Origin: Acidobacteriota bacterium
Lineage (GTDB): Bacteria > Acidobacteriota > Terriglobia > Terriglobales > SCQP01
NCBI GenBank assembly: GCA_021818955.1
Contig: JAKASR010000031.1
Location: 1-36,478, forward strand
DNA: 36,478 bases
Reading direction: 5' to 3'
Of the stretch, positions 8,394 through 25,910 are shown one piece after another. The position numbers and the translations under genes were made by a program. The notes beneath the pieces are model-generated. The model made no database searches. It was not told where the DNA came from and saw only the letters and a program-made list of their open reading frames with translations. Each line of letters opens with the position of its first letter. Positions within the stretch are counted from its first letter, which is position 1.

Positions 8394-9725
8394 ATGTCTA
8401 GCGCCCTTGCCGCATCTCAACCGCTGATTCGCACCGAATTACCCGGCCCCCGCGCCCGCCAGGCGCTGGAGGCCGACGCCCGCCTGATCTCGCCTTCTTA
8501 CACCCGCAGCTACCCGCTGGTGGCGCGCCGCGGCCGCGGCATGCTGGTCGAAGATGTGGACGGCAACCAATTCCTCGATTTCAGCGCCGGCATCGCCGTT
8601 TGTTCCACCGGGCATTGCCACCCGCGCGTGGTCGAAGCGATCGAGCGCCAGGCCAAAGAACTGATCCACATGTCGGGCACCGATTTTTATTACGAGCAGA
8701 TGACCGATTTCGCCGCGCGGCTCTCGGCGGCGGCGCCCATGCCGGGACCGCACCGCGTTTATTACGGCAACAGCGGCGCGGAGGCGGTTGAAGCGGCGCT
8801 GAAACTGGCGCGCTATCATACCCGCCGGCCCTACATCATCGGCTTCTACGGCGCCTTTCACGGACGCACCATCGGGGCCTTGTCGCTGACCTCCAGCAAA
8901 ATCACCCAGCGGGCGCGCTTTGCTCCGCTGGCGCCGGGCTTTTTTCACGCGTCCTATCCCGATCCCTATCATCCGCCGCATGGCTGCGCCGACGCCGCCG
9001 CCGCCTGCCTGGAAGAAATCGAGCGCTTGTTCCGCACCACCACGCCGCCGGAAGAAACCGCGGCCATCGTCTTCGAGCCGGTGCAGGGCGAGGGCGGCTA
9101 CATCGTGCCGCCAAAAGCGTTTGTCCAGGGGCTGCGCGCCATCTGCGACCGGCACGGCATTTTGCTGATCGCCGACGAGGTGCAGTCCGGCGCGGGACGC
9201 ACCGGAAAGATGTGGGCGATCGAGCACTTCGGCGTCGAGCCCGACATCATCACCAGCGCCAAGGGCATTGCCAGCGGCATGCCGCTGGGCGTAACCCTGG
9301 CGCGCGCCGGCATCATGGACTGGACGCCGGGGGCGCACGCCTCCACCTTTGGCGGCAACCCGGTATGCCTGGCGGCCGCCATGGCCACGCTCGAACTGCT
9401 TGAAAAAGAACTGGTGGCGAATGCCGCAAAAGTCGGCGCCCACATCCTGCAACGCCTCGAAGACTGGCCGCGCCGGCTGCCCGGCGTGGGCCAGGTGCGC
9501 GGCCTGGGCCTGATGATCGGCATCGAGCTGGTAAAGGATAAGGCGCAACGCACGCCCGATGCCCAGCGCCGCGATCGGGTGGTGAAAGCGGCGTTTGAGC
9601 AAGGCCTGTTGCTGCTGGGCTGCGGCCCGACGGCGATCCGGCTGATGCCGCCGCTGATTTGCACTCAAGCCGACGCCGACCTGGCACTGGATATTCTGGA
9701 GCGCTCGATGCAAGCGACGGCCTGA
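8394..9725 (+). CDS. Class III PLP-dependent aminotransferase (acetylornithine/4-aminobutyrate aminotransferase family)
   Basis: A 443-residue enzyme. ATG 8394 is chosen because AGGAG (about 8381-8385) lies in front of it; an upstream in-frame ATG at 8328 would add 22 unlikely residues. Family marks are FLDFSAGIAVCSTGHCHPRV, the YYGNSGAEAVEAALKLAR phosphate-binding segment, GFYGAFHGRTIGALSLT, EPVQGEGGY, LIADEVQSGAGRTG (Asp contacting the PLP nitrogen) and TSAKGIASGMPLG with Lys290 forming the Schiff base. Class III enzymes move an omega-amino group from GABA, ornithine derivatives or similar substrates to a keto acid; GABA-type activity is a reasonable guess, not proven. It may be co-regulated with the upstream decarboxylase. 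G+C is high, in sharp contrast to the island that starts downstream. Confidence 0.85.
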   Translation: MSSALAASQPLIRTELPGPRARQALEADARLISPSYTRSYPLVARRGRGMLVEDVDGNQFLDFSAGIAVCSTGHCHPRVVEAIERQAKELIHMSGTDFYYEQMTDFAARLSAAAPMPGPHRVYYGNSGAEAVEAALKLARYHTRRPYIIGFYGAFHGRTIGALSLTSSKITQRARFAPLAPGFFHASYPDPYHPPHGCADAAAACLEEIERLFRTTTPPEETAAIVFEPVQGEGGYIVPPKAFVQGLRAICDRHGILLIADEVQSGAGRTGKMWAIEHFGVEPDIITSAKGIASGMPLGVTLARAGIMDWTPGAHASTFGGNPVCLAAAMATLELLEKELVANAAKVGAHILQRLEDWPRRLPGVGQVRGLGLMIGIELVKDKAQRTPDAQRRDRVVKAAFEQGLLLLGCGPTAIRLMPPLICTQADADLALDILERSMQATA

Positions 9726-10210
9726 TGCGAAAAAATTAAAACCGAATAATTTATTTGGTCCGCGCACCTGAAACCTCGGCGCGCCGAAAGCGTCTATTTT
9801 ATGCAGATGCGGCGGCGACTGCAGCACGGCTTGTGAAAACATCGGGCAACTTGTGCGACACAACCGCTAGCGCTGGATCATGCTGGCCGAAAACTATCTT
9901 ACACGAGAGCTGATCGACAGTATGTTACGACGCATCATTGCACTACCGCAACCGACAGGCTAACATACCGCGAGAGCCGCGGGGAAAAGCTCTATGATTT
10001 ATCCAACACAAGGGAAAGTATCTTACAAACGCTGGAAAATGGGCTGAATCAGAACCGTTGCCACTGATGTGGAGGCGTCTTCAACGCTGACTAATGCCAA
10101 ACTGGCGCTACACCACCGCGACATCGCTTTTGAGTGTATGCTATGCGGGTAGAATGGCTACCAAAATGGACATTCCTGTTAAATAGCCACTCCTGTGATG
10201 ATATCTTCTT
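9726..10210 (+). other. Left flank of the defence island: non-coding or decayed sequence with possible zinc-ribbon gene relic
   Basis: This 485-base gap has no intact gene and marks the drop in G+C. Between about 9837 and 10152 there are protein-like fragments in different frames. The frame from 9837 is open for 76 codons without a start codon, and at 10053 reads NRCH-stop-CGGVFNAD. After a one-base shift, the frame at about 10095-10152 reads LALHHRDIAFECMLCG then stop. Together they give a CxxC...CxxC spacing like a zinc ribbon. Two very short ATG frames (MLAENYLTREL at 9880, MIYPTQGKVSYKRWKMG at 9994) are also present. This could be a decayed gene or chance. No att-like repeat or tRNA is visible. 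Confidence 0.35.
10155..10189. repeat. Inverted repeat just upstream of the defence operon
   Basis: TGGCTA (10155-10160) and TAGCCA (10184-10189) form a perfect 6-bp inverted repeat, 23 bases apart, ending 21 bases before the methyltransferase ATG. It could be an operator or a leader hairpin. It is short enough to be chance, and no convincing -35/-10 pair was found nearby. Confidence 0.3.
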
Positions 10211-12127
10211 ATGACATTAATCCGGCGCATCAACTGGAATAACTTGGACCGAGTTGTCGTTCGCCAGCAACGAAATCGATCTGCCTATACACCAGCAATT
10301 TCATTCTATCGCTGGTGGGCGAGGCGTCCGCACAGCTTCGCCGGACGCATTCTCGATGCTGCACAGAAGGAATTTCGGCGGGAATCATTCCTCGTCTCGG
10401 ATCCTTTCAGCGGAGGAGGCACTGTTGCTTTCGAGGCGGCCCGTCGAGGCCTCAAAATATATGCACAAGACTTGTACCCCTGGCCATCGCAGAGCCTGGC
10501 AACAGCACTGACACCAGCCGCGCCCGATGAGTTCAAAACGGCAGCAGCAGTAGTCCTTGAAGCCCTTTCACGGCATCGAGAAGCTTACTGGACACAAATG
10601 TGCGAGCACAAATGGGAAACCACCCATGTGATCCGGGTACGTTCAGCCGTCTGCCCAGCTTGCTCAAAGCGTATTTTTCTTTTCCGCGCCCCCCTCATCT
10701 CGGTTGCTTCCCGTAGAGCCGACGAATCAAATGCTTTTTTCGGATGTTCTGCTTGTGGGGGCGTTACGCGCAAATCCAAGGACGTCCGTTTCTTTAAATG
10801 TGATCACTGTTGTCAACGAGAACTGATAACAACTAAGACCATCAAGAATCGCATGACAGAAATACATTGTCCACATTGTCCTGAGTCTTTCTTGCTTTCA
10901 GATCTCCTCCTCGACACTCCTGAATGGCAGCCCGTGCTTCTCCGGGAACAACGTGTTTTGAGCGCTTATCCTTTGGCCCGCCTGCGGACGCCGGAAAAAG
11001 GCGACCCAATCGAGGACGTGCGAGACAAGGATCACCACAGTCTTCATATCAAGATTACGGAGGGGGTTGAAACCGCCGCGCTCAAACGATACGGCTTTTC
11101 CTTTTGGGATGAGCTCTACACCCAAAGACAGCTTGATGCCATCACAGCCGCACTTAAGATCGTTCCAACCCTCAAAGTCGGGGAGCCGATAAAACAACAT
11201 CTTCGTCTTGCAATCCTCGGTACAACCGAAATGGCGGGTTATATCTGCCGTTGGGAGCGCTTTCACCCAAAAGCTCTCGAAGCTATTGCTAATCACCGAT
11301 TTTCGCGCTCCACAATCACAGTCGAGACAAATCTCCTCTCCACCTCCGGCCGAGGCACCCTACCGCAGAGGTTCAAAGCCGCGGAAAAAGCCCTAAGATG
11401 GATGTGTGCCAAGAGCTACCCAATAAGTACCACGCACGCGCGCTCATCAGGGGCCCGGCGCATCGTAGAGGGTGCTCTTGTTGTCACCGGAAGTTCGGAG
11501 CGTCAACTCCTCACAGATGGTGCGGCACATCTCGTCTTTACCGATCCGCCCTATCATGATGATGTTCAATACGGAGAACTTGCGCGGCTCTTCCACGTCT
11601 GGATGGCCTACGCTGGACAATGCGAGAAAGCCCCAGACGAACGTAAGGAAGCGACTCCCAATGCATCCCGAGGCATCACGACTAGACAGTACGAGAAAAA
11701 AATTGCAGTTTGTCTCCTCGAAAGCCGGCGGACGCTCGCCTCAACCGGGCGGCTTGTTTTAACCTTCCATAACAAAGACCTTAAGGCCTGGGAAGCGCTC
11801 GCAGGTGCCCTCCTACACGCTAAATTCGACATTGTCGCGCTGGCAACTGTAGCGGCAGAGAACTCAGCCGATCATAGCAAACGCGGAAAACAGAGTTTCC
11901 TCTCCGATCTCGTCATTGAATGTCGAACACGCGTCTACAGGCGAAGATCATGGCAACTCAAAGTCAGCGGACAGGTAAGAAGTATGGAGAGAAAGAATCT
12001 ACAAGCTATCGGGCTCGCTCTAGCTGAACGCGTCAATAGTGGTGAGGGAAACCTCGAAATTCTTTTCAAAAAGTATCTCAAGGACCTCAAGGCCAAGAGG
12101 GCGCTTATCTCTCGCGGAGGAAGATAG
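10211..12127 (+). CDS. DISARM-type DNA amino-methyltransferase (DPPY, DUF1156-like) with zinc-ribbon insert
   Basis: A 638-residue predicted DNA methyltransferase. WWARRPHSFAGRIL (35-48) is the WWARRP signature seen in DUF1156-type DNA methylases. Motif I is DPFSGGGTVAFEAARRG from Asp64 (SAM binding). Motif IV is TDPPYHDDVQYGEL with D445-P-P-Y448, the catalytic signature of N6-adenine/N4-cytosine methylases. No PCQ-type cytosine-C5 motif was seen. Between them are four CxxC pairs (C148/151, C179/182, C197/200, C220/223), consistent with two zinc ribbons, plus the likely target-recognition region. The order motif I before IV with a long insert resembles alpha-type enzymes. It is the first gene of the operon, 1 base before the next start, so it would modify host DNA for the DrmE/A/B proteins. 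It is shorter than the usual DUF1156 DrmMI proteins as I remember them. G+C is clearly lower than outside the island. Confidence 0.75.
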   Translation: MTLIRRINWNNLDRVVVRQQRNRSAYTPAISFYRWWARRPHSFAGRILDAAQKEFRRESFLVSDPFSGGGTVAFEAARRGLKIYAQDLYPWPSQSLATALTPAAPDEFKTAAAVVLEALSRHREAYWTQMCEHKWETTHVIRVRSAVCPACSKRIFLFRAPLISVASRRADESNAFFGCSACGGVTRKSKDVRFFKCDHCCQRELITTKTIKNRMTEIHCPHCPESFLLSDLLLDTPEWQPVLLREQRVLSAYPLARLRTPEKGDPIEDVRDKDHHSLHIKITEGVETAALKRYGFSFWDELYTQRQLDAITAALKIVPTLKVGEPIKQHLRLAILGTTEMAGYICRWERFHPKALEAIANHRFSRSTITVETNLLSTSGRGTLPQRFKAAEKALRWMCAKSYPISTTHARSSGARRIVEGALVVTGSSERQLLTDGAAHLVFTDPPYHDDVQYGELARLFHVWMAYAGQCEKAPDERKEATPNASRGITTRQYEKKIAVCLLESRRTLASTGRLVLTFHNKDLKAWEALAGALLHAKFDIVALATVAAENSADHSKRGKQSFLSDLVIECRTRVYRRRSWQLKVSGQVRSMERKNLQAIGLALAERVNSGEGNLEILFKKYLKDLKAKRALISRGGR

Positions 12128-12128
12128 T

Positions 12129-14561
12129 GTGGTTTGGCTCGATGCATTTAAGGCATTGAAGGAAAAACAGACCTTTGAATCGCGCCTACTTCGCGACCAA
12201 GTACCCCTCATCGTAGCCGGCGAACACCTCTCTCCGAGCGTCACGGAGCGTGCAAGCGGGGCCCTCGCTTCATACCTTCCCAGAAATCTCGCCATTGGAG
12301 AAAGACGCAGACTCATTTTATTACTTCCGAATGCAACGCAAAGTCTCGGGCGATTTCTCACTGTAAGCTTGCTTCTTGCGGACTTCGTTAAGCGACGAGA
12401 AGGAAGCATGTCACTTTTGAAAGGTGACCTACTTTTCATTACCCAACACATTCGAAACTGCGTCAATCTTCTTCGCGATGTGGCACTTCACCTGCGTTCG
12501 GAACGCCTTTCAATCACCGAGTTTTGGCCGATCGAAGTTCTCTCTCAATTCTCCACGCCGCCAGATTCCAAACCGCGCGTATTTGTTGCAAACCCAGGCT
12601 GGTCGTCTGTACTCAAGGAACGAAACCCTTTTGGCGCTGTTGTCGTGGACGTATCTCATCCAAGGACCTCGGATCATCTCGAAGACCTTCTAAAGCAACC
12701 AAGCATTGCTTCATCCCCTATCCAGATTCTTGTCATTCCCCCTTGGGAAAAAGACCGCATTTCGGCACTTTCGGAAAAAGACAGGCCATCCGATCTCATC
12801 TGGTCTTGGGACCCTGCCGCGGTCGAAGCCGTCGAAGAACTGCTCGCGACCAAACCCGCGTCTTCCCCTCCAAGACTGATGCAGCGATTTGTTTGGCTCT
12901 CGGATGATTCAGAGGTTGAGGATCAACTAGCCGAACTCCATAGCCTGCTCGTAGGTGCAATGAAAGCCGGAAATGGATACGTCCCAGGCGCGGTGCTTGG
13001 AGCCTGGGGCACGTACAATAAGCTGCGGCAGTTGTCGGTCCCGCTTGTTGCTCTCGAAGAAGAGCGAAGAGATGCCTATCACACCCTTACAATTCGGGAG
13101 CGAATTCACGAACTTGAAGAACAGCCCCCTGAAGGTCGTGGTGCTATCGGAACTTATCTTGATGCGCGATGGCCGAGCATATTGGCGGCACTCAAGGCTC
13201 TCTACGACACATTGCTTCGAAGAAAAGAACCAGCAAAGTTTTATATACTCGCGAGCGTGGTTGACCAATTCATCGAAAAGCGCATGCCTTCCGATAGCTT
13301 ACGCATCGTTGCACCCACACGACACGAAGGCAATATGCTCGCGACTCTTCTCGGCGATATCATAAGCACATGGCCTGAAGCGCTCCAATCAAATGCTGTA
13401 TCCATCACCACAATCAAAGAGGAACCTAGAATCATCGCGGAAGGTACTTTACGACAAACCGTACTTCTCGGTTTTCGAACCAGTGAGACGCGTTATTTGG
13501 ACGTTTATCCAGGAGTTCCTGTGCACGTTGTCGCCTACCCTTATGAGGCTGAGGTCGATGACAAAATCCAGCAGCGCATTCACGCCTCGATCGAAAGTTA
13601 TCAAGAGAACGCTCCCCGAATCGTCGTTTTGAAACAACTTCAATTTGATGCGCCCGTTTCTTCGGGAAATGAAACCCTGCAGAATGATCTTCCAAAAACG
13701 AAGCGTCCTGAAATCACGCGTCGATTTGAACCTCAACCCCGTCTCCAGCAAAGGAAGTTTCTCGGAGATGATGCGGTAGAACCCCTAAACCTTATGAAAC
13801 TCATTGGCCAGAACTGGTTCGAGGAAATCGATATGTCAGGAGAGACCCACGCGCCCGATGACAAAGCTAGACGTTCGCTCGAATACTGCGAGATCGTCAC
13901 CACCGAAGGACGGTACCGTTTTCCCACAGGCCGGCTCGTTGATATATTTCGACCCGCAACCGAGCAGAAAGAGCGCGTTGCCGCGGGCGATCTTGAACCT
14001 GGAATGCTCATGGTTGTTCTCGTTGATGATCCCTACGAAGATATTTTTAACCGGACCCTTGAAGCTATTCGCCAGAACCAAGATATTGCCACGCAGATGG
14101 CTCTTGATCTCTGGGATCACGCAAAACCAGCCGCCCTTACAAAATATGATGGAAACAGAATGAGGCTTCATAACGCTCTCGAAGGGCATGGACTATCCGT
14201 TGACTATGGTGCTTTGCTCGGATGGTACCGCACGGGCGATGACGAGATTATGGCCCCCGACAACCGGGAAGATTTTGAAATACTGGCCCGCGCGACTGGT
14301 CTCTATTCTGATCCCACTCGAATCTCCGCGACATTCAACTGCATTCGACATGAGCGTGCTGTCCGAAGAACCTGCGGACGGCAACTCAGTCGTCTTCTTT
14401 CCCATCTGGCAGCAGGAAAGAACTACGAGGCCGCGCTCAAGAGCGCCGACGCTATCGGCACAGCGCTCGAACAAGTGGCTGCCGCGGTTAGTTTGCAAGA
14501 GGTTGAGTCCGTCCGAATGCTCGGCAAAAGAGGATTCGCCTCGACCTTGGAGGAAGAGTGA
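12129..14561 (+). CDS. drmE: DrmE-like protein of a DISARM system (degenerate helicase-like)
   Basis: An 810-residue protein. GTG 12129 is chosen because GGAGG (12116-12120) sits 8 bases upstream and the previous gene stops at 12127; the frame is open upstream but runs inside the methylase. I see no Walker A: the place where one would be expected reads LILLLPNATQSLGRFL (63-78). Further segments resemble helicase strands, such as GDLLFITQHIRNCVNLLRDV (99-118), VFVANPGWSS (151-160) and VVVDVSHPR (171-179), which sits like a Walker B without the glutamate. A later RIVAPTRHEGNMLATLLGDI looks like a second RecA-type domain. This pattern and its position immediately before drmA suit DrmE, the class 2 DISARM protein of unknown function. 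The assignment is by context and remembered family features; a profile search would settle it. Confidence 0.65.
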   Translation: MVWLDAFKALKEKQTFESRLLRDQVPLIVAGEHLSPSVTERASGALASYLPRNLAIGERRRLILLLPNATQSLGRFLTVSLLLADFVKRREGSMSLLKGDLLFITQHIRNCVNLLRDVALHLRSERLSITEFWPIEVLSQFSTPPDSKPRVFVANPGWSSVLKERNPFGAVVVDVSHPRTSDHLEDLLKQPSIASSPIQILVIPPWEKDRISALSEKDRPSDLIWSWDPAAVEAVEELLATKPASSPPRLMQRFVWLSDDSEVEDQLAELHSLLVGAMKAGNGYVPGAVLGAWGTYNKLRQLSVPLVALEEERRDAYHTLTIRERIHELEEQPPEGRGAIGTYLDARWPSILAALKALYDTLLRRKEPAKFYILASVVDQFIEKRMPSDSLRIVAPTRHEGNMLATLLGDIISTWPEALQSNAVSITTIKEEPRIIAEGTLRQTVLLGFRTSETRYLDVYPGVPVHVVAYPYEAEVDDKIQQRIHASIESYQENAPRIVVLKQLQFDAPVSSGNETLQNDLPKTKRPEITRRFEPQPRLQQRKFLGDDAVEPLNLMKLIGQNWFEEIDMSGETHAPDDKARRSLEYCEIVTTEGRYRFPTGRLVDIFRPATEQKERVAAGDLEPGMLMVVLVDDPYEDIFNRTLEAIRQNQDIATQMALDLWDHAKPAALTKYDGNRMRLHNALEGHGLSVDYGALLGWYRTGDDEIMAPDNREDFEILARATGLYSDPTRISATFNCIRHERAVRRTCGRQLSRLLSHLAAGKNYEAALKSADAIGTALEQVAAAVSLQEVESVRMLGKRGFASTLEEE

Positions 14562-17500
14562 CATCCTCAAAGCCCACCCAACCCTTCTCCTATCGTGATG
14601 AAGAGGCCTTGGTCCGTTATCTCGTCGGTGATCTTGAAAGGAAGCTCGCCGGTCGCCACGAACCGAGGATTTTGCGCATCATTCCTAGCGATCACTGCCA
14701 TCTCGGCGTGCTCGGACCTAGAGACCCCCTTGTGGTGCAGCCCGATCCTCTTGAACCAGGCGACGATGAGCCGCCACCAAGTGCCCAGGCGGCGGCCACG
14801 AAACCTGCTGGGACGACGGCCCCCCAAAGCGAAGATGAGGAGGAGCCCGAAACTGCACCCAACGAGGCAGAACAGCAAACCGCCGAACGCCAGGGCGTGA
14901 CTCGTGATTCGACGCGAAGACCACCCTCGTCACTCGGCTTTGAAATTGTGGTCTCGCCTGCAACCAACGGCGAGATCGAGCTTATTCTGCAAGCCCGCTT
15001 CGCAATCTACACGCAGCATTTCCCGACTTTCGAAGAGCAAAGGGACGAGCTCGGCCGCTTACAGCAAGACCAAACCACCCCTAATCAGCCCGCTCAGCCG
15101 AGGCAGAACGTTTCGCTCCTCGAAGTCTTTGAGCGCCGTGAAGTTGAGGTTCCGCCGATCACGCTCCGCATCAATCTGCAAGAGCGAACGCAGCGAAGTA
15201 ACGATGATGGAGCCGTGCAGCGCGCCCTAGACGCCATCCTGACCGAAGCGGCAACTTCCGAGACGATTGCACGCACGATCGCCGGCAATGCCGTAGTTCC
15301 CGTTCAAGCCTTGAGCGATGCCAATACATTTCAATACTTCCTTCGTAGCATCTCCACTGGCCCCGTCGTTCTCCCTCCGCTCCAGGCGAGTCTCGATATA
15401 CGCTCAAGTGCACTTTCTGATGGAACGGTGCGGGTAAGCTGCTATATCTGCAACAACACCCCAAGAAATGTCGCTCAGCGCTTTCGGGACCAGCACAACA
15501 TCCTCGCGGATTGCCAACTTTCGGCCACGTTAGTTCATGGAGACCTTAAGCCCGTTGAGCTTCTGCCGGTATCAAGAGACTACCAATTCGACCGCAAGGT
15601 CTGGGCTGTAGGTCATTCGGCAAGCGTTGTTGTTTGCAAAGACCTGAAAGCTCTTCGAACGGAAACCCTTGCACGCTTCGAACAGCGGCGGCGAATAACC
15701 AATCAGAAACCGTGCGCCAAGTTTGCTGACCTCGTGGCCAACCCGCTCGACACACTTGAAGCGATCCGAGTCGCGATGACGGCTTACGGCAACGATTGGC
15801 AGTACGAGGTCCTTGGCAAGAATTCGCTGCAACTCTCGCAAGATCAAATCCGCCAATGCGAAATTGACCTTCGAGGGTTTCGCGATGAAGAAGCGCGTTT
15901 TTCGGCAGGAATGGCGGCGCTCGCAAAAGATGAGAGGCTCATGCAAGCATTTCAAGGGATGAACCGGGTTTTCCAACGAACTGTGAAATACGAGAGCTGG
16001 CACCTCTTTCAGATTGTCTTCATTGTTATGCAGCTCCCTGCCCTGGCCGTGCGCGAGGGGATCGTAAGTGGCGAATGGCCGAGCGGAACAATTAGGAATT
16101 GGGATGATGTTCTTAACTGGGCTGACGTTCTTTGGTTTCCAACAGGTGGCGGAAAAACTGAAGCCTATCTAGGACTCATAAGCTGTGCGGCCTTGTACGA
16201 CCGCCTTCGCGGAAAATCCTTCGGCGTTACGGCCTGGCTCCGCTTTCCGCTCCGCATGCTAAGCGTCCAACAGCTCCAGCGAGCCGTTAGGATCGTATGG
16301 GAAACGGAGCAAGAACGGCGTGCTATGCAGAACTCCGATGCCCATGCCGAACCGATTTCTCTTGGCTACTTCGTCGGTCCGAGTACACCCAATTATCTCA
16401 AATACGGACATTGGGCCATAGATCGCTTAGAGAACGATCCCGAGCTCCGAAAAAAGCTTCTACTCGTGAGCAACTGCCCGGCCTGTGGTGGCACCAGCAC
16501 AGTTCAAATCGTCATTGACCGCGAACACCAAAGAATTCGCCATGTATGCTCACGCTGCAACCAGCACCTCCCGGTCTATGTCTCCGATGATGAGATCTAT
16601 CGGTTCCTTCCGACGGTCATCGTTGGGACGATCGACAAAATGGCAAGCGTCGCCTATAGGCCGTCCTTCCCCATGATTTGGGGAGCCGCAGCCTGGCGAT
16701 GCCCGGAACACGAGGAGCACGGGTTTGGCGTGGGGGATTGGTGCATCGAGAAATGTCCATCAAACCCAGGCGCGGGGCGGAGGGCACGGCGACGAACAGC
16801 CGTTACTCCGTATGACCCATCTCCGGCGCTACATATTCAAGACGAACTTCATCTTTTGCAGCAAGAACTCGGAGCTTTTGCCGGCCATTATGAAACCCTC
16901 ATTCGTTCCTGCGAGGAGCATGTTGGCACGCGTCCTCCGAAAACGATTGCAGCAACCGCAACCATTGAGGGTTTTGAGCACCAAATTCGCCAAATCTATG
17001 GCATCCCCCACGCGCGCCGGTTTCCCACCCGCGGCTACGACCTACTACAGACGTTCTATACTTCGGCCGACGTAGATACCGACACTTCCGATCAACACGT
17101 TAAAACTGCACGGGTCTACGTCGCATTTCGCCCGCCACACTTGCATGCGGCTGACGCAGCCTACCTCTGTGTGCGTTATCTCCATGAGGAGATCAATCGC
17201 CTTTACTCGAATCCATGCGACGCCGCAGCTTGGCTCCCAACGGCCCGCACCGAAGACGCAGTACGAGCGCTTCTCTACTTCTATACAACCACGCTCACTT
17301 ATGTCGGATCTAAGCCTCGCGGCCTCCGCATTCGCCAAGCCCTCGAAAAGGACGCTGGTCGTCTCAGGCCCGGAAATGCGCGTGACCTCAATACCGAATT
17401 TTTGTCAGGTGAATCGAGTCTGTCCGTGATCGCCGAGGTTGTTCGTCGTGTTGAAAACCCACCGAAGTGGGACGAGGAGAGTTATCTCGATGCGACCGTC

Positions 17501-18175
17501 GCTACAAGCGTGATCAGCCACGGTGTGGATGTGGAACGATTCAACCTTATGGTCATGGACGGCATTCCCGAGGAAACCGCCGATTACATTCAAGCCTCAA
17601 GCCGAAGCGGCCGAAGACATGTCGGCTTGGTGATTGCGACTCTGGCATCGTACTCTCTTCGTGCTTCAAGTATCTATCACAGGTTTCCCGAATATCACCG
17701 TAATCTCGAACGTCTCATTTCCCCTGTCTCAGTAAATCGCTTTGCGAAATTTGCAGCCCAGCGAACAAGTCCAGGCGTATTTGTCGGTTTGCTATCAGGA
17801 AGGTATGGCGCCATTCTCCACAATCAGCAGCTCGTCAAACGTCGGGTCGCATCAGAATTTCTCAATCCAAATACGCGATCGCAACTACCACGGCAGATAG
17901 GACGCGACGAGATCGAGCGCTCGCTATGGGAAGCCTATGCCCTAGATAAAGACATCTATCCCAAGGGCCTCGAACTCCGCATGAAGCAAATCCTCCGAGA
18001 TCAGATCGACCAGTTTCTCTTTCTTATCCGTGGAAGCCAGAGAGAAAAGGTTATGGAGGTGCTTCAACCAACGCCAATGACGAGTCTGAGGGACGTTGAT
18101 GTTGGTGTCAAGTTCAGGCCTGACGAGTACGCTGAATACCGCGATCTCCAGTGGTTCAATATGGAGAACACATAA
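14558..18175 (+). CDS. drmA: DrmA-like DISARM helicase
   Basis: A 1205-residue superfamily 2 helicase. GTG 14558 overlaps the previous stop (GTGA), with GGAGG at 14549-14553. Motifs visible are FPTGGGKT (527-534, Walker A Lys533), an unusual QDELH (Asp762-His765) in the DEAH position, IAATATIEG as motif III, then ATSVISHGVDVERFNLMVMDG and the arginine-finger motif QASSRSGRR (1012-1020). Between Walker A and motif II is a CxxCGG...CxxC zinc ribbon. The long N-terminal part, about 520 residues, contains an acidic and Pro/Ala/Gln-rich linker (about 66-122). Size and motif set match DrmA. In DISARM, DrmA works with DrmB on unmethylated phage DNA ends. DrmB follows 1 base after the stop, consistent with making a complex. 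Confidence 0.85.
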   Translation: MTSSKPTQPFSYRDEEALVRYLVGDLERKLAGRHEPRILRIIPSDHCHLGVLGPRDPLVVQPDPLEPGDDEPPPSAQAAATKPAGTTAPQSEDEEEPETAPNEAEQQTAERQGVTRDSTRRPPSSLGFEIVVSPATNGEIELILQARFAIYTQHFPTFEEQRDELGRLQQDQTTPNQPAQPRQNVSLLEVFERREVEVPPITLRINLQERTQRSNDDGAVQRALDAILTEAATSETIARTIAGNAVVPVQALSDANTFQYFLRSISTGPVVLPPLQASLDIRSSALSDGTVRVSCYICNNTPRNVAQRFRDQHNILADCQLSATLVHGDLKPVELLPVSRDYQFDRKVWAVGHSASVVVCKDLKALRTETLARFEQRRRITNQKPCAKFADLVANPLDTLEAIRVAMTAYGNDWQYEVLGKNSLQLSQDQIRQCEIDLRGFRDEEARFSAGMAALAKDERLMQAFQGMNRVFQRTVKYESWHLFQIVFIVMQLPALAVREGIVSGEWPSGTIRNWDDVLNWADVLWFPTGGGKTEAYLGLISCAALYDRLRGKSFGVTAWLRFPLRMLSVQQLQRAVRIVWETEQERRAMQNSDAHAEPISLGYFVGPSTPNYLKYGHWAIDRLENDPELRKKLLLVSNCPACGGTSTVQIVIDREHQRIRHVCSRCNQHLPVYVSDDEIYRFLPTVIVGTIDKMASVAYRPSFPMIWGAAAWRCPEHEEHGFGVGDWCIEKCPSNPGAGRRARRRTAVTPYDPSPALHIQDELHLLQQELGAFAGHYETLIRSCEEHVGTRPPKTIAATATIEGFEHQIRQIYGIPHARRFPTRGYDLLQTFYTSADVDTDTSDQHVKTARVYVAFRPPHLHAADAAYLCVRYLHEEINRLYSNPCDAAAWLPTARTEDAVRALLYFYTTTLTYVGSKPRGLRIRQALEKDAGRLRPGNARDLNTEFLSGESSLSVIAEVVRRVENPPKWDEESYLDATVATSVISHGVDVERFNLMVMDGIPEETADYIQASSRSGRRHVGLVIATLASYSLRASSIYHRFPEYHRNLERLISPVSVNRFAKFAAQRTSPGVFVGLLSGRYGAILHNQQLVKRRVASEFLNPNTRSQLPRQIGRDEIERSLWEAYALDKDIYPKGLELRMKQILRDQIDQFLFLIRGSQREKVMEVLQPTPMTSLRDVDVGVKFRPDEYAEYRDLQWFNMENT

Positions 18176-18176
18176 G

Positions 18177-20108
18177 ATGGCGTTCACGCGTGGTCAAACT
18201 CAGGTCCTCTATCAGTTCTTGCCCGGAGCCGTATTTGAACATGATCAATATGGCTTCTGCCGCATCAGTGGCGTTGAACTCCAAGAAAAACAAGTCAATC
18301 AAGACGCAATCTTTAGCGCCCTCGCCGACCTTCTTTTTCAGTGGCCAGATGATGTTTTTCGACCAGGGTTCCCCGATCCTCGGGCGCAAAACAACAGGCG
18401 TTTGTATGTTATTGGGACCCCGACCACGGTTCGCTTTCAGCCATTTCCGACGCTCTTGGAGTGTCGAAAATGCCGCCGTGTCCATCGCCTACGAGATTTG
18501 ACGCGCCGACCAAACATACAACCACGCCAGTGCCCCGAATGTGCCGGAATACTCGGCCAGCTTCGTTACGTACAGGCCCACAATTGCGGAAGAATGGAAG
18601 AACTCTACTATCCGCAAAATGCGTGCCCTAGACACGCCTCCCGCTTCCTTACGTTCTTGGACACAGGCCGCGTTCGCTCCGCACGCTGGAGGTGCGGGGC
18701 CTGCGGTGACGCCGAGGTTGGCCGCCTCCGCATGACTCCCTGCACCTGCCAATACTCTCGGTCATTGGGTACCCAACAGGGCTCTATGTACGAGCGCGGG
18801 CTCAAGACCCTCGCCTTGACCGATAGTGCTCTCTTCCTCCCTCACGTCGTACCCTTTATAAACTTCAACGAAGAGCAAGAGAAAGTCTTCTATCAAGATC
18901 CTGATACCTACAACCTTATCCTCGCGAGAACGTGGGGCGTCCTCACGGAGGATTTGCCAACCACGATCCGCGAGCGCGCAAAGCGTTTGGGTACAGGCTC
19001 TGACGCTTCCGAGGATGAAGACAGGGCGGATGACCTCGCTCGCGCACTTGAGGCCGTCGACCCAAACAATCCGCTGGTTCTGAAGTGGAAACAAAGCAAA
19101 GCGCGCAAAGCCGTTGTCCCCGGCCAGGAGGCCATAGAAAGAGTTCGGGCCCTCCTCGGTGCCAGAGCACCTGCCCCGAATTCGCCAACACCTCGCCAGC
19201 TTGTGGAGCACCTGGCGATTCTCGACACACTCCGCACCACTTCCATCGATGAGGCTGCCGCAGACCTTACGAGTATCGGCGATGGCCCGGGAGCAGACCA
19301 CCTACGGTCGGCAAGAGAGTTTGCGCTTCATGACCTCGGTATCGGTGAACTGAAGATCGTTTCCGATTTCCCAATCGCCCTTTGCGCTGTCGGCTACACC
19401 AGAATAACCAGAGATCCAGCCCGGAGCATTCTCACGCCATTCGAGACTTCAGATTCAGCCGGCCGCGTCCCCCTTTACATTGTGAGCAGCGAAACGGAGG
19501 GGATTTACTTTCAGCTTGACCCGTCACGAGCCGTGAGATGGCTCATTGAGAACCGTTGGGTCCAGTCACCGGTTCCTGATTCCAAAGAAAGTGCTTGGGC
19601 TTGGTTCTACACCCACGTGCCGGGATTGTTCGAAAACCGCTGGCAACCAAACTTCAACGAACATCTTGCGGTAGCCTTGAGAACTCTCCTCCACACGATG
19701 AGTCACGTCCTTCTTCGCCACGTTGAGTGGAGCGGGTTTAACCAAAATAGCGTCGGCGAATACTTGATACCGGGGGCCCTTGCTGGAATCCTCTATGCCA
19801 ACCGCTACGCCGAAACGAAGATCGGCGGACTGACAACTCTCTTCGAACACCAGCTAAGAGTATGGCTCGACGATTCAGCTCAAAGCGGTCGACAATGCGT
19901 CTACGATCCGTTTTGTACGGATGAAGGAGGCACTTGTGTTGGTTGCCTCCACCGAGAATACAATTGTCCCCAGTTTAACCGTGAACTGTCCCGAGCGGTT
20001 CTCTACGGCGGACCAACACCGCCCCCTGAGCTCGGGGGCGCACTAGGAATGCAAACGATCGAATGTGGGTTCTGGCACGGGCTACACCCGACACTTCAAA
20101 ATGCGTAA
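18177..20108 (+). CDS. drmB: DrmB-like DISARM protein with DUF1998 domain
   Basis: A 643-residue protein. ATG 18177 begins 1 base after the drmA stop; GGAG at 18163-18166 is the only ribosome site, so translation is probably coupled. The N-terminal half has cysteine pairs C96/C99, C119/C122, C173/C176 and C189/C191, with C137 and C150 between, forming one or two zinc-binding sites. The C-terminal part (about 500-640) is DUF1998-like: LHTMSHVLLRHVEWSG, the GGLTTLFEH segment and a final cysteine cluster CVYDPFC...CVGCLHREYNC. DUF1998 proteins are partners of DrmA-type helicases, and the DrmA-DrmB pair is the core of DISARM. The last bases overlap the start of a further reading frame (ATG at 20101), so the operon originally continued. 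Confidence 0.85.
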   Translation: MAFTRGQTQVLYQFLPGAVFEHDQYGFCRISGVELQEKQVNQDAIFSALADLLFQWPDDVFRPGFPDPRAQNNRRLYVIGTPTTVRFQPFPTLLECRKCRRVHRLRDLTRRPNIQPRQCPECAGILGQLRYVQAHNCGRMEELYYPQNACPRHASRFLTFLDTGRVRSARWRCGACGDAEVGRLRMTPCTCQYSRSLGTQQGSMYERGLKTLALTDSALFLPHVVPFINFNEEQEKVFYQDPDTYNLILARTWGVLTEDLPTTIRERAKRLGTGSDASEDEDRADDLARALEAVDPNNPLVLKWKQSKARKAVVPGQEAIERVRALLGARAPAPNSPTPRQLVEHLAILDTLRTTSIDEAAADLTSIGDGPGADHLRSAREFALHDLGIGELKIVSDFPIALCAVGYTRITRDPARSILTPFETSDSAGRVPLYIVSSETEGIYFQLDPSRAVRWLIENRWVQSPVPDSKESAWAWFYTHVPGLFENRWQPNFNEHLAVALRTLLHTMSHVLLRHVEWSGFNQNSVGEYLIPGALAGILYANRYAETKIGGLTTLFEHQLRVWLDDSAQSGRQCVYDPFCTDEGGTCVGCLHREYNCPQFNRELSRAVLYGGPTPPPELGGALGMQTIECGFWHGLHPTLQNA

Positions 20109-20242
20109 GGATGAAATACCTGCCCTCAAAACTCTCACGGCTTTAGTCGCCGGAAGGGAAGACCTCGTTGCTCGGATCGCTGCGCCTCTCCGGGCCCGTA
20201 TCGGGCGATGGATCGATTCCGACTTCTTGAAGACGTTATTTT
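20101..20242 (+). pseudogene. 5' fragment of the next island gene (position of drmC), cut at the island border
   Basis: ATG 20101 overlaps the drmB stop (ATGCGTAA, 8-base overlap) and begins a frame reading MRKDEIPALKTLTALVAG and on to about residue 47 (FLKTLFFNRAV). From 20243 on, the same bases are the 3' end of hemW on the opposite strand, so the apparent extension of the frame to 20928 is only antisense shadow. In known DISARM loci drmB is normally followed by drmC, a phospholipase-D-type nuclease, so this is a good candidate for a truncated drmC. The fragment is too short to identify and shows none of the HxK nuclease motifs. A very short intact gene that happens to run into hemW cannot be excluded. 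Confidence 0.55.
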
Positions 20243-21415
20243 TTAATCGAGCAGTTCGGCGAAAACGCTATTGGACAGCATGCGGCCGCGCGGGGTTAGC
20301 CGCAGGCGGCCGGCGACTTCCTCCAGCATGCCTTGCGCGACGGCCTGGGCGATGGCCGGGCGCTTGGCCGCCAGCGGCGCGGCGCCGAATTCGGTTTCCA
20401 ATTCGTTCCAGGCGATGCCGGCGTTGCGCCGCAGGCCGAGGAAAAAAGCCTCTTCCAACTGCCGGCTCGAACTTATATCTTCCACACTGTTGCGCGGCAG
20501 GCGGCCGGCTTCGAGCGCGTCCAGATAGGCGTGCAATTCCGCCGGGTTTCCCCAGCGGCGCTCACGCCCTTGTTGGCGCAGCATCGAGTGCGCTTCCAGG
20601 CCAAAGCCCAGGTAGGGACGCCGCGTCCAGTAGCGCAGGTTGTGGCGGCTTTCGGCGCCGGGGCGGGCGAAGTTGGAAATCTCATATTGCCGCCAGCCCG
20701 CGGCGGCCAGCGTTTCGATTGCCCATTCATAGAAGGATGCGGTCTGTTCGTCGCCGGGCACGGCCGGGGCGTGGTAGCGCGCACCGCCGGCCAGCAACTC
20801 GCGTCCCAGGCGGCTGTCTTCATCCACTTCCAGCATGTAAATGGAGATGTGCGGCGGGGCAGCATCGAGAGTTTGGGCGAGGGAAGCGCGCCAACTGGCT
20901 TCGGTCTGGTGCGGCAGACCGGCGATGAGGTCGAGATTGATGTTTTCGATGCCCGAGCGGCGCAGCAACTCGAGGTCGCGGCGAATGTCTTCGGGAGAAT
21001 GCAAGCGTCCGACGGAGCGGATTTCTTCCGGCTGCCAGGATTGCACGCCCAGGCTGATGCGGTTGACGCCGGCATCGCGCCAGGCCTCGATGCGTCCGGC
21101 ATCGAGCGTGCCGGGCGCGGCTTCCAGGGTGAACTCGGCGTCCGGGGCCACAATCCAATGCTCGCGCGGCGCCGGCGCCAGTTTCCGCACATGTTCCGCT
21201 TCGAGCAGGCTGGGCGTGCCGCCGCCCCAATAAAGGGTATCCGCCTGGCTGCCGGTAAACGGCTCGGCCGCGGCGATCATGGCCATTTCACGGCGAAGGC
21301 AATTCAGGTAGCGCGCTAGCAGGCGCCGCGGGAAAACGTCGCTGGCGAAGTTGCAATAGCTGCACTTGGCGCGGCAGAAGGGAAACGAAAAATATAGTCC
21401 GAGGGGTTCGAACAT
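20243..21415 (-). CDS. hemW: HemW-like radical SAM protein (haem chaperone; formerly annotated as anaerobic coproporphyrinogen oxidase)
   Basis: A 390-residue radical SAM protein. ATG 21415 gives MFEPLGLYFSFPFCRAKCSYC, matching the usual HemW N-terminus; the TTG at 21460 would add unlikely residues. The CxxxCxxC iron-sulphur motif is C14-C18-C21, followed by GGGTPS (SAM binding), RISLGVQSW and INLDLIAGLPHQT. The length and the C-terminal winged-helix-like part (LEEAFFLGLRRNAGI) fit HemW rather than HemN. HemW binds haem and is thought to deliver it to respiratory enzymes. The stop codon lies exactly at the right border of the defence island, and the gene itself looks complete, so the island or a later deletion inserted beside rather than inside it. 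G+C is high again. Confidence 0.85.
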   Translation of the reverse strand: MFEPLGLYFSFPFCRAKCSYCNFASDVFPRRLLARYLNCLRREMAMIAAAEPFTGSQADTLYWGGGTPSLLEAEHVRKLAPAPREHWIVAPDAEFTLEAAPGTLDAGRIEAWRDAGVNRISLGVQSWQPEEIRSVGRLHSPEDIRRDLELLRRSGIENINLDLIAGLPHQTEASWRASLAQTLDAAPPHISIYMLEVDEDSRLGRELLAGGARYHAPAVPGDEQTASFYEWAIETLAAAGWRQYEISNFARPGAESRHNLRYWTRRPYLGFGLEAHSMLRQQGRERRWGNPAELHAYLDALEAGRLPRNSVEDISSSRQLEEAFFLGLRRNAGIAWNELETEFGAAPLAAKRPAIAQAVAQGMLEEVAGRLRLTPRGRMLSNSVFAELLD

Positions 21416-21529
21416 AAGCCCGGATTCGCAGCGCTCGTCATTGCAATTATCCCAAATCAATTTGCGGCGCTCGTAGTGGAAATGAATTCCATTGACAGGG
21501 GGCCTTAATTAAAAGCGAGACACTTTTCG

Positions 21530-21716
21530 AGCGGCACGGCCGCTTTTACTTTTAGGCGCTGACGCTTTCGCAAAGGTCCGGCCGAAACCGGACGCAGGGC
21601 GAATACTCATGGCTGCCGAAAGTTTATTGTCGTTAATAGGCGCGGGACCTAATAGTAACCCCGCGCTTCGGCCTGCGATTTCGGACGAAAACTGCTGTCC
21701 GACTCGGCCGTTAACG
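21530..21716 (+). ncRNA. 187-nt conserved structured repeat, copy A (possible riboswitch-like RNA)
   Basis: This copy matches 29119-29305 over 187 bases with no gaps and 10 differences. It starts with AGCGGC-ACG-GCCGCT plus a T-rich run (terminator-like, though no plus-strand gene precedes it). A first junction can form: CTTTCG pairs with CGAAAG around the hairpin GTCCGG-CCGAAA-CCGGAC and a GACGCA...ATGGCTGCCG segment. A second junction is closed by TCGTTAA/TTAACGA, with hairpins GCGCGGG/CCCGCGC and TCGGAC/GTCCGA. GCAAAGG, GAAA, GACGCA and GGCTGCCG are in the order found in c-di-GMP-I (GEMM) riboswitches, but the third stem is much shortened. The copy lies between hemW and the GH31 gene, both on minus; nothing plus-strand follows it. 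21416-21529 and 21717-21827 hold no recognised feature. Confidence 0.5.
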
Positions 21717-21827
21717 ATTTTGAATTATGTTTCGGATCGAGCCTGTAAGGCATGTGACTACAGCTATTTGCGTTCGACCTTTAGACTGAAACATGAATTA
21801 GCCGCGTCTCGCTTCTTTGGACCCGCG

Positions 21828-24173
21828 TTAATGCGCAGTCAGGCTCAACGGCTGGCCGGTATAGGAGCCTTGGGCATCGGCGGAGGCGGTAACGTCCGGG
21901 CCGGCGCCGTGGCCGGGACGGACGACCACCAGGCGGATGCGAATGCTGGGGGGCATGCCCGGGTAAGAGCCTTGGGCCGCGCCGATTTCAAGCGTGCGGG
22001 TGGCATCGTTCCAGTGCATGGGGACAATCCGGCGCTGGCCCTGCTCGTAGGCGTAGCTATCGCCCGCGTCCGAGTACCAGGAAAAATCGCCATCGGCGCC
22101 AGGATAGACGCGCACTTCAAGCGTGGTGAGCGGGGCGGTGGCGTATTGCACCACGGGGCCGAGCGGCACGATCGAGCCGGCGCGGACATAAAGCGGAATG
22201 CGGTCGAGCGGCGCCGCGGCCTGAACCGTTTGGCCGGCATGGCTGGCGGGGAGGCGGGCGCCGGTCCAGAAATCGTACCAGGCCGGCCAGGCCGGCAGAT
22301 AGACTTCGCGCATGACGGCGTCCGGTTCGGTGACCGGAGCGACGAGAAAAGCGGGGCCGAACATGAATTCATCGCCGAGGTTGCGCACGCGCCGGTCGTG
22401 CGGCCAATCCATGGGCAAGCCGCGCTGCATGGTGTAGTCGTCGTGGGTGACGCGCCAGGCGAGCGAATAGATGTAAGGCAGCAGGCGATAGCGGAACCGG
22501 TCGTAAGCGATTAAGGTCGGGGTTTGGGGGCCGTAGCTGAAGATCTCATTGGTATCGTTGGCGCGATGGCCGTGGGTGCGGAAGATGGGGCAGAAGACGC
22601 CGTATTCGAACCAGCGGGTATAGAGCTGCTGGTAAGCGGGGTCGCGGGTATCGCGCACCAGAGGCCAGCCATAACCGGCGATATCGGTGGTCCAGTAGGG
22701 CAGGCCCGACATTTGATAGTTGAGCCCGGCGGCAATCTGGCGGCGGAAGCTCATCCAGGTGCCGAGCACGTCGCCGGACCAGACAGTCGCGCCGTAGCGC
22801 TGCTGGCCGAGGAAACCGGAGCGGGTCAGGATGAAAACGCGTTTGCGGCTGGTGGTTTTCCGCCAATGGTTATAGACGCCGCGAGTGTGCAGCAAGGGAA
22901 AAATGTTGGTATAGCGGGCGCCGTTGCCGATAAAGAGCCGGCGGTCGGCGAGCGCGGCGTCGCTTTGCCCGTTCCAGATTTCCGGTTCGCTGCTATCGAG
23001 CCAAAAGCCATCCCAGCCCTCGGCAAAGATCTTCCCCAGCAGGTGTTTCCAGTAATAGTCACGGGCGGCGGGATTGGTGGCGTCGTAAACGTCGGTTCCG
23101 GGAATAATGAAGCCGCGCTGGAGCATCGCCTGGTAATTGTGCGAGCGCAGGTCGAACTTGGCCCAGACGGAGATCATGGCATGCAGATGCTCGGCGTGCA
23201 GTTGGCGCAGCGCCGCCGGAACATCGGGCCAGGGCTGGAGATAGGCGGCGGAGAATTGCGGATCGCCCTGGCGGCGCCACCAGAACCAATCCTGCACGAT
23301 GAAATCGAGCGGCACCTGCCGGCTGCGGTATTCATGGGCGATATCGAGCAATTGCCGGGCGGAGGTGTAGCGGTCTTTCGATTGGATGAAGCCGTAGGCC
23401 CAGCGCCCATAAAGCGGGGCATGCCCGGTCATGCCGCGATACAGGTGAATGATGCGATCGATGGAGGGGCCGTAGAAAAAGTAATAATCGATGGCGTCGG
23501 CGGCATCGGAGACGAGTTTCAGCTCGGTGGGGAAGCGATTGTCGTAGCGGGAAACGGCCGCGGTGTTCCAGAGCAATCCATAGCCGCGGGTGGAGACGAA
23601 CATCGGAATGGCGATATTGGTGTTAGCCTGCGCCAGCTCGACCACGTTGCCGCGCTGATCGAAGACGCCGTCCTGATGCTGTCCCAGGCCGTAAATGCCT
23701 TCGCGCGCCGAGGGAAAGAAGCGTTCTTCGACTTTATACAGCTTTTCACCATTGACGATTTCCGGAATATAGCGGCGGGCTACGCGCGGCGATTCCTGCA
23801 AGAGGATTTTGCCGTGCGCATCCTGAAAGCGGAGCAGCGCCTCACGCGTGCCGATGCTGACCGCCAGGTCGCGGGTGCGCACCACCACGGCGGCGGGCGT
23901 GCGGGTAATGGAGAGCTGTTGCGGAACACAAGGCCGCACCCACCAGGGGGTATGGGGAGAAGCGCCTAGCGGGTTTCCGGGGCCGGCGACGACATGGATG
24001 ACATCGGCGCCGCAGGCGCTGACCCGCAAAGTCTCGCTCCCGCTGCGCGCCACGACCGAGGTGGAGTGGAGGTGGAACACCGGCCGCGGCGGGGAGGGCA
24101 TTTGAGCGATAACGGCGGAGGCAGCTAAGGTCAAGCCAACCGCGGCGGATAGAAACCGAAAACCGAGTCGCAT
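21828..24173 (-). CDS. Secreted GH31 alpha-glycosidase (alpha-xylosidase or alpha-glucosidase type)
   Basis: A 781-residue exported enzyme. ATG 24173 is preferred over GTG 24185; it gives MRLGFRFLSAAVGLTLAASAV with cleavage near VIAQ. The GH31 beta-sandwich and barrel are clear: EGIYGLGQHQDG, PLDFIVQDWFWWR, DGFWLDSSEPE with Asp393 as nucleophile, and ATVWSGDVLGTW with Asp468 as acid/base. GH31 retaining enzymes cleave alpha-xylosyl or alpha-glucosyl residues, for example from xyloglucan. The DWFWW motif is often seen in alpha-xylosidases, so that is the first guess, but substrate cannot be fixed by eye. There is no PA14 insert. It fits the plant-polysaccharide theme of the GH54 and GH36-like genes at the other end of the window. 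Confidence 0.85.
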   Translation of the reverse strand: MRLGFRFLSAAVGLTLAASAVIAQMPSPPRPVFHLHSTSVVARSGSETLRVSACGADVIHVVAGPGNPLGASPHTPWWVRPCVPQQLSITRTPAAVVVRTRDLAVSIGTREALLRFQDAHGKILLQESPRVARRYIPEIVNGEKLYKVEERFFPSAREGIYGLGQHQDGVFDQRGNVVELAQANTNIAIPMFVSTRGYGLLWNTAAVSRYDNRFPTELKLVSDAADAIDYYFFYGPSIDRIIHLYRGMTGHAPLYGRWAYGFIQSKDRYTSARQLLDIAHEYRSRQVPLDFIVQDWFWWRRQGDPQFSAAYLQPWPDVPAALRQLHAEHLHAMISVWAKFDLRSHNYQAMLQRGFIIPGTDVYDATNPAARDYYWKHLLGKIFAEGWDGFWLDSSEPEIWNGQSDAALADRRLFIGNGARYTNIFPLLHTRGVYNHWRKTTSRKRVFILTRSGFLGQQRYGATVWSGDVLGTWMSFRRQIAAGLNYQMSGLPYWTTDIAGYGWPLVRDTRDPAYQQLYTRWFEYGVFCPIFRTHGHRANDTNEIFSYGPQTPTLIAYDRFRYRLLPYIYSLAWRVTHDDYTMQRGLPMDWPHDRRVRNLGDEFMFGPAFLVAPVTEPDAVMREVYLPAWPAWYDFWTGARLPASHAGQTVQAAAPLDRIPLYVRAGSIVPLGPVVQYATAPLTTLEVRVYPGADGDFSWYSDAGDSYAYEQGQRRIVPMHWNDATRTLEIGAAQGSYPGMPPSIRIRLVVVRPGHGAGPDVTASADAQGSYTGQPLSLTAH

Positions 24174-24292
24174 GGCATCACTCACTTAGTGAAACTGACA
24201 CCAGCTTAGCAGCTTCAGGAGACAGCAGCAGAAGGCACACGAGTGGGGTTAAGCCGGGGGAAAGCCCAGGCTAAAGACAACCGAATGAAACG

Positions 24293-25321
24293 TTAACCGC
24301 CGGCTGAGATGGGAGCTTCCAGCGGGGCTTCGCGCAAATGGCGGGCGGCATCTTCGGGCAGCACCGGGTTGATATAGAAGCCGCTGCCCCATTCAAAGCC
24401 GGCCACGCGCACCAGCCGCGGCATGTATTCCAGATGCCAGTGATAAAACTCCTGCGCGTTTTCCTGCAGCGGCGCGCTCAGCAGGACCAGATTGTAAGCG
24501 GGGTGATCGAGCACGGCGTCGGTTCTGGCCAGCATGCCTTTCATGGCCTTGGCCAGATTTTCATAGACGCGGCTGGAGGAGTGCTCGAAAAAGCTCTCAT
24601 GCCGGCGCGGCAGAATCCAGGTTTCGAAAGGGAAGCGCGGGGCGTAGGGCGACAGCGTCACGGTATCTTCGTTTTCATCGATGATCCGGGTGCGCGACTC
24701 CAGTTCCTGGCGGATGATATCGCAATAGATGCAGCGTTCCTTATATTGAAAATACTGACGGGCGCCGTCGGTTTCCTCGCGTGCGCGCTTAGGCACAATG
24801 GGCAGGGCGATCAGTTGCGAATGGGTGTGCTCGAGCGAGGCGCCGGCCGCCTCGCCATGATTTTTGAAGATCAGGATATAGCGAAAGCGGGTGTCTTTGC
24901 GCAGATCGAGCATGCGGTCGCGAAAGGCCCAGAGCACGTCTTCAATGCGTTTTTCCGGCAGTTCGGCCATGGTTTTTTGGTGCTCGGGGGTCTCGATAAT
25001 GACCTCATGAGCGCCGATGCCGTTCATTTTGTCGAAGACGCCCTCGCCCTGGCGGTTGAGGTCGCCTTCGATGCCGAGCGCGGGAAATTTATTGGGCACG
25101 ACGCGCACCGACCAGCCGGAAGAGTTGGGGCCATCGCCATTGGAGCGGTAGGCGAGAATTTCCGGCGGGGTTTTGGCTTCATTGCCGTAACAGAAGGGGC
25201 AGCCGGCGCCGTTGCCGCGGGGCTGGCTGGCGAAAGCATGAAAATCATTGGGCCGCATGGAGCGCGCAGTGGAAATAATCACCCAACGGCCGGTAATGGG
25301 ATCTTTGCGAAGTTCAGGCAT
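24293..25321 (-). CDS. galT: Galactose-1-phosphate uridylyltransferase
   Basis: A 342-residue enzyme. It exchanges UMP between UDP-glucose and galactose-1-phosphate in the Leloir pathway in the cytoplasm. The histidine-triad motif LEHTHSQLIA contains His165-Thr-His167-Ser-Gln169, where His167 is the expected covalent UMP nucleophile. CPFC (41-44) and the GAHEV histidine fit the zinc site of the E. coli-type enzyme. N-terminal MPELRKDPITGRWVIIS and the segment RVVPNKFPAL are classic. It starts 12 bases after the stop of the yraN-like gene on the same strand, so the two are probably one transcript. Together with the galactosidase-like GH36 gene elsewhere in the window it points to galactose use; galK and galE are not in view. 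Confidence 0.92.
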   Translation of the reverse strand: MPELRKDPITGRWVIISTARSMRPNDFHAFASQPRGNGAGCPFCYGNEAKTPPEILAYRSNGDGPNSSGWSVRVVPNKFPALGIEGDLNRQGEGVFDKMNGIGAHEVIIETPEHQKTMAELPEKRIEDVLWAFRDRMLDLRKDTRFRYILIFKNHGEAAGASLEHTHSQLIALPIVPKRAREETDGARQYFQYKERCIYCDIIRQELESRTRIIDENEDTVTLSPYAPRFPFETWILPRRHESFFEHSSSRVYENLAKAMKGMLARTDAVLDHPAYNLVLLSAPLQENAQEFYHWHLEYMPRLVRVAGFEWGSGFYINPVLPEDAARHLREAPLEAPISAGG

Positions 25322-25825: not shown

Positions 25826-25910
25826 ACCCACGCCCGAAGCCAGCGACAAGCTATCATCCCGCTAGAGGGCGCAAGGCGCAAGCCGGGGCAAAACGCATAC
25901 ACTGGATATA

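Follow-up and report, generated by a model that had tools for sequence, protein, structure and literature searches.

How should a DISARM-like locus be classified in which a putative amino-methyltransferase stands directly before a DrmE-like protein? DISARM classes rest on fixed pairs, an adenine methylase with DrmD or a C5-methylase with DrmE, and in PADLOC type I DISARM requires DrmA, B, C, D and MI and no drmE, while type II requires DrmA, B, C, E and MII (PMC9252829). A lineage breaking this pairing separates two questions, namely the identity of the base mark that DrmAB must ignore and the role of DrmE. Such a locus is found in the window, the stretch of 36,478 nucleotides from an Acidobacteriota bacterium analysed here (Table 1). 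We favour, with a probability of roughly 78%, the reading that a DISARM of the DrmE-associated kind was acquired here by horizontal transfer, and that a DUF1156/type-3-BREX-like amino-methyltransferase had taken the place of its C5-cytosine methylase in a single event in a common ancestor. The island genes M, E, A and B lie on one strand, tightly packed and abutting or overlapping, and the originally predicted order of a DPPY methylase, a DrmE-like gene, DrmA, DrmB and a truncated gene is borne out by the open reading frames and their coordinates. The start codon of E is GTG, preceded by GGAGGAAG. The G+C content of the island is about 51-58% compared to 59-68% in the flanks.

Table 1. Features of the DISARM-like island; gene assignments are based on profile matches and homology.
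Feature	Assignment	Position	Strand	Length	Remark
M	DUF1156/HmaB/PglXI-like amino-methyltransferase	10211..12127	+	638 aa	
E	divergent DrmE homologue	12129..14561	+	810 aa	
A	DrmA, YprA-family helicase	14558..18175	+	1205 aa	
B	DrmB, DUF1998-type partner	18177..20108	+		ATG at 18177
DrmC stub	DrmC, N-terminal part	20101..20242	+	47 codons	
Island	low-G+C island	9726..20242			between aminotransferase gene and inverted hemW/galT

The gene order M-E-A-B recurs in distant bacteria, as it was proposed to check. It is followed by an intact DrmC gene on a plasmid of Rubrobacter tropicus, where an integrase comes next, and in Tautonia sociabilis (Planctomycetota), and it extends up to the contig end in a betaproteobacterial groundwater MAG; on a plasmid of Streptomyces cellulosae M is placed divergently and followed by E-A-B-C, with an annotated AAA ATPase, a transposase and a TnsA-like endonuclease downstream. 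The known set comprises five loci including the window, all of them computational. The system is rare: a search of about 1,100 genomes with an E-clade profile returned two partial or weak matches beyond the query genomes, scanning genomes with E alone yielded none, scanning them with DrmA yielded two, and no relatives were detected in viral and phage collections. By identity to the window proteins the loci rank as Tautonia, Rubrobacter, the betaproteobacterial MAG and Streptomyces, and this ranking is identical for M, E, A and B, which suggests that the four genes have travelled together. An isolated fragment in another genome (G298, locus L034, about 9350-9808) is 37% identical to the central part of E. 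Its surroundings contain no DrmA, and it is a probable remnant of a lost system.

The helicase core is readily recognised. A matches DrmA in PADLOC (1.9e-107), in NCBIfam (4.1e-106) and in the solved structure of Serratia DrmA (7s9v; 1.3e-52), and its helicase motifs PTGGGKTE, QDELH, ATAT and QASSRSGR are intact; B matches DrmB (PADLOC, 6.9e-40) with an intact four-cysteine cluster. Two of the components expected of class 2 are present with them, and as DrmA and DrmB are encoded by neighbouring but distinct genes next to a DNA methylase, the locus is a DISARM in the broad sense. DrmD had no match among the four locus proteins in PADLOC, and the closest DrmD-like SNF2 helicase elsewhere in the genome is the HmaA of an Hma-type locus on contig C21. 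This second locus (L045, 3510-11684) encodes the HmaA SNF2 helicase (PADLOC, 1.8e-148), a PDC-S01-like protein and a 1019-aa HmaB/DUF1156 methylase (4e-109), so that DUF1156-family methylases occur twice in one genome, each in a different defence context.

The prediction of a DrmE-like product for the second gene passed the test that was set beforehand. Residues 292-795 of E match the NCBIfam model DrmE_fam (6.9e-14, 51 bits, with a curated cut-off of 80), and no PADLOC model matches E. When E and three close relatives were compared by hhalign to the DrmE proteins of four haloarchaeal loci, at least two of which contain a C5-methylase, a probability of 98.3% was obtained (E 2.6e-14, 659 columns), and a second DrmE set gave 97.5%. 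The control comparisons with DrmA, DrmB, M, UvrD, NERD-UvrD and PglX reached at most 0.5%, and the comparison with DrmD gave 0.5%. Because the HMM match, the full-length profile-profile match and the clean negative controls come together, E is, as judged by homology, a full-length but divergent homologue of DrmE; the DrmE of class 2 is in this way present, though it scores under the curated cut-off and escapes the PADLOC models. A motif scan found no helicase Walker A and no DEAD/DEAH-box in E or in the DrmE set, and since E is devoid of ATPase motifs its role is probably non-catalytic. A GGGKT stretch in the Rubrobacter E was considered as Walker A and rejected, being a single regex match situated in an unconserved stretch. 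A search of the PDB with the E sequence found nothing, and the AlphaFold2 model of E, obtained from a three-sequence alignment, was too poor for use (pLDDT 44).

In M, the SAM motif DPFSGGGT is found at residues 64-71 and the catalytic DPPY motif at 445-448, exactly the Asp445-Pro-Pro-Tyr448 that had been predicted; the M motifs including DPPY are invariant across four close homologues, and four CxxC pairs start at residues 148, 179, 197 and 220. The comparison of M with methylase families, likewise proposed earlier, identified it as DUF1156-type and neither as DrmMI nor as C5-MTase. Its best PADLOC families are PglXI (2.2e-17) and HmaB (3.9e-16), and NCBIfam DUF1156_antiphage is matched with 1.3e-21, under the curated cut-off; the assignment to the DUF1156/HmaB/PglXI family is based on these profile matches (1e-16 to 1e-21) together with DPFSGGGT and DPPY. 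By hhalign, M and the Streptomyces M match with 100%, and no similarity of M was detectable to the DrmMI of three class 1 loci (0.9% probability), to C5-MTases (1.7%) or to the PglX-like MTases of haloarchaeal loci. According to PMC12839542, DUF1156 MTases are N6-MTases near those of type-3 BREX. From the family and the DPPY motif the product of M is probably N6-methyladenine, and N4-cytosine methylation would also be compatible with DPPY alone. In the PDB the M profile matched TAL repeats and zinc ribbons (E 3e-4 to 1e-2), most likely owing to chance or composition, and the AlphaFold2 model, again from a three-sequence alignment, was too poor for use (pLDDT 38).

With a methylase of the HmaB/PglXI kind, and with an Hma-type locus residing in the same genome, the operon might be regarded as a BREX- or Hma-like system that has recruited a DrmAB helicase rather than as DISARM proper. 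We consider this very unlikely: the methylase family is indeed shared with Hma and type-3-BREX/BR systems (HmaB, PglXI, DUF1156 MTase), but their other components, PglZ, BrxC, HmaA and HmaC, are all absent from the locus, and the partners of M are DISARM proteins, as A, B, E and, in the relatives, C all belong to DISARM families.

Profile searches supported the predicted absence of both a C5-methylase and DrmD from the locus. A search for C5-MTases that was positive in 10 of 14 control genomes found none at E<=0.001 anywhere in the 96%-complete draft genome, so that DrmMII, the C5-cytosine methylase of class 2, is detected neither in the locus nor in the genome. This bears on the proposal that the system is an ordinary class 2 DISARM with its C5-methylase encoded elsewhere and M as an unrelated neighbour. 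The linkage of the C5-MTase can be loose, since in some haloarchaeal loci it lies downstream or on the other strand. However, the search likewise found no C5-MTase in the Tautonia genome, in the betaproteobacterial MAG or on the plasmids of Rubrobacter and Streptomyces, and in four loci M is the direct neighbour of E, with which it co-diverges, by which this proposal is largely refuted and, in our estimate, highly improbable.

The replacement of the methylase within a DrmE-associated lineage agrees with the phylogeny of DrmA. In a tree of 27 rows the five loci form one clade (support 100/98), in which the four M-E-A-B loci are grouped at 100/100, and the clade is nested in a 19-member DrmE-associated branch (100/100) that carries C5-MTases, other MTases or none recognised, while class 1 is placed on the opposite side. 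The distribution of methylases is explained by three changes, the smallest number possible with four methylase types, so that the change from the C5 to the DUF1156 type appears single in this sample, in which some branches are long (Alloc, Strep), some loci have no assigned methylase and no Bacillus-type class 2 reference is included. The locus resembles class 2 DISARM by its DrmE homologue, by DrmB, by a DrmA on the DrmE-associated branch and by the order E-A-B-C, with DrmC in the relatives; it differs by a DUF1156-type amino-MTase in place of the C5-cytosine methylase, by an E so divergent that the PADLOC models miss it and by the truncation of DrmC in the window copy. With class 1 it shares an amino-type methylase and the DrmA/DrmB core, but it contains a DrmE homologue where class 1 has none, lacks DrmD, belongs to a different DrmA branch and encodes an M that, by profile comparison, is not homologous to DrmMI. 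Taken by its gene content, the locus thus fits neither published DISARM class, and under the PADLOC definitions it is neither type I nor type II. The original prediction of an exchanged modification chemistry on a class 2 effector side is the best description, given the DrmE homologue and the position of DrmA. Its statement that the island mixes class 1 and class 2 is loosely worded because M is neither DrmMI- nor PglX-like and represents a third kind. The predicted combination of a DrmE-side DISARM with an adenine-type, BREX/Hma-related methylase is undefined in current catalogues. A survey of the YprA helicase family covers DISARM, ARMADA, BRIGADE and TALON (PMC12458937), and in the part of it that was available no description of this gene combination was found; DISARM mentioned together with DUF1156 was not found in the literature searched.

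DrmC, a further component of class 2, is intact in Rubrobacter and Tautonia and is truncated in the window. The stub is homologous to both of these DrmC proteins (44% over 43 aa; in tblastn, E 0.002 for Rubrobacter DrmC and 67% over 18 aa for Tautonia DrmC). It lacks the PLD nuclease domain, and its reading frame goes on through antisense hemW up to 20928. The aminotransferase gene, galT and hemW are collinear and co-directional in two relatives. In the window the hemW/galT pair is inverted with respect to the aminotransferase gene, and the stub terminates exactly at the hemW stop (the hemW 3' end), marking the right edge of the island as a rearrangement breakpoint. The DrmC nuclease domain was therefore probably removed by this rearrangement. 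As DrmC is cut, the window copy is an incomplete system, and it might be a decaying remnant of the same lineage whose function was lost in this host. The rearrangement has left only the N-terminal codons of DrmC, and its remainder was not found elsewhere in the genome in a search performed without a positive control. Nevertheless, the reading frames of M, E, A and B are open across 9.9 kb, every motif that was checked is intact, and DrmC was reported to be dispensable in another DISARM (PMC9142583), so that its loss need not inactivate the system; we judge decay to be possible but unlikely. The lost part of DrmC was also sought at the far end of the hemW/galT inversion (near 25334-25849), where the open reading frame is YraN-like and has no match to DrmC. 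Within 20243-25321 of the window, about 2.8 kb separate the inverted hemW and galT, a gap that amounts to about 120-180 bases in genomes G001 and G004, and these 2.8 kb include a 785-aa minus-strand open reading frame resembling a family 31 glycosidase. A tRNA-Arg called by ARAGORN at 20337-20425, inside hemW and antisense to it, next to the island edge, is probably a false positive and was not used as evidence for an attachment site.

How such a system may work can be sketched by homology with another DISARM, whose DrmAB binds unmodified 5'-overhang DNA and shows a lower ATPase activity on methylated DNA, the mark being 5-methylcytosine (PMC9142583). M would label host DNA as self, probably by N6-methyladenine as suggested by its family and the DPPY motif, and the DrmA-DrmB helicase pair would load on unmarked DNA and block or unwind it. 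E would act as a structural or regulatory partner, that is, as a scaffold or regulator and not as a catalyst, and DrmC would be an accessory nuclease in the intact relatives, destroyed in the window copy. Protection would be exerted via DrmAB, with or without the nuclease, and the window copy either works without DrmC, as reported for other DISARM, or decays. In the broader reading, to which we give slightly better than even odds, the five loci represent a third DISARM class, of DrmE type, in which self is marked by adenine instead of C5-cytosine methylation and whose BREX-3/Hma-type methylase was gained in a single event and carried by mobile elements into several phyla. If this third-class reading is true, DrmAB is combined with two independent modules, one being the methylation chemistry and the other the DrmD/DrmE partner, and the variant described here uncouples the former from DrmE; if the DrmAB of a DrmE-type system is held off by adenine marks, the model of sensing by base contacts must cover more than one methyl position. 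In practical terms, defence finders that require DrmMII or that apply the present DrmE models will miss such loci.

Mixed methylases in DISARM have precedents. The Serratia DISARM contains an N6A as well as a C5 methylase (PMC9142583), and a Woesearchaeales provirus with an unspecified MTase_II was termed class 2 (PMC11705971). Operons on Polaromonas and Afipia plasmids (L021, L030) resemble the window locus, since an amino-type NPPY MTase precedes a large E-like protein followed by A-B-C; they differ in the MTase family (Alw26/BREX-PglX-like matches) and in their separate DrmA branch, and their E-like protein is only weakly related to the window E clade (4-13%) compared to haloarchaeal DrmE (83-86%). 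An E-like protein of this kind occurs with A-B-C also on a Rhizobium phaseoli plasmid (L031, 4199-14334), where the sole amino-MTase motif of the stretch lies downstream on the opposite strand. A further mixed DISARM is present in genome G307 (L036, 5457-17708), in which a C5-MTase, a 537-aa DrmE_fam protein, a NERD-UvrD-type helicase, DrmA and DrmB stand in a row; the tree places this DrmA on the class 1 side.
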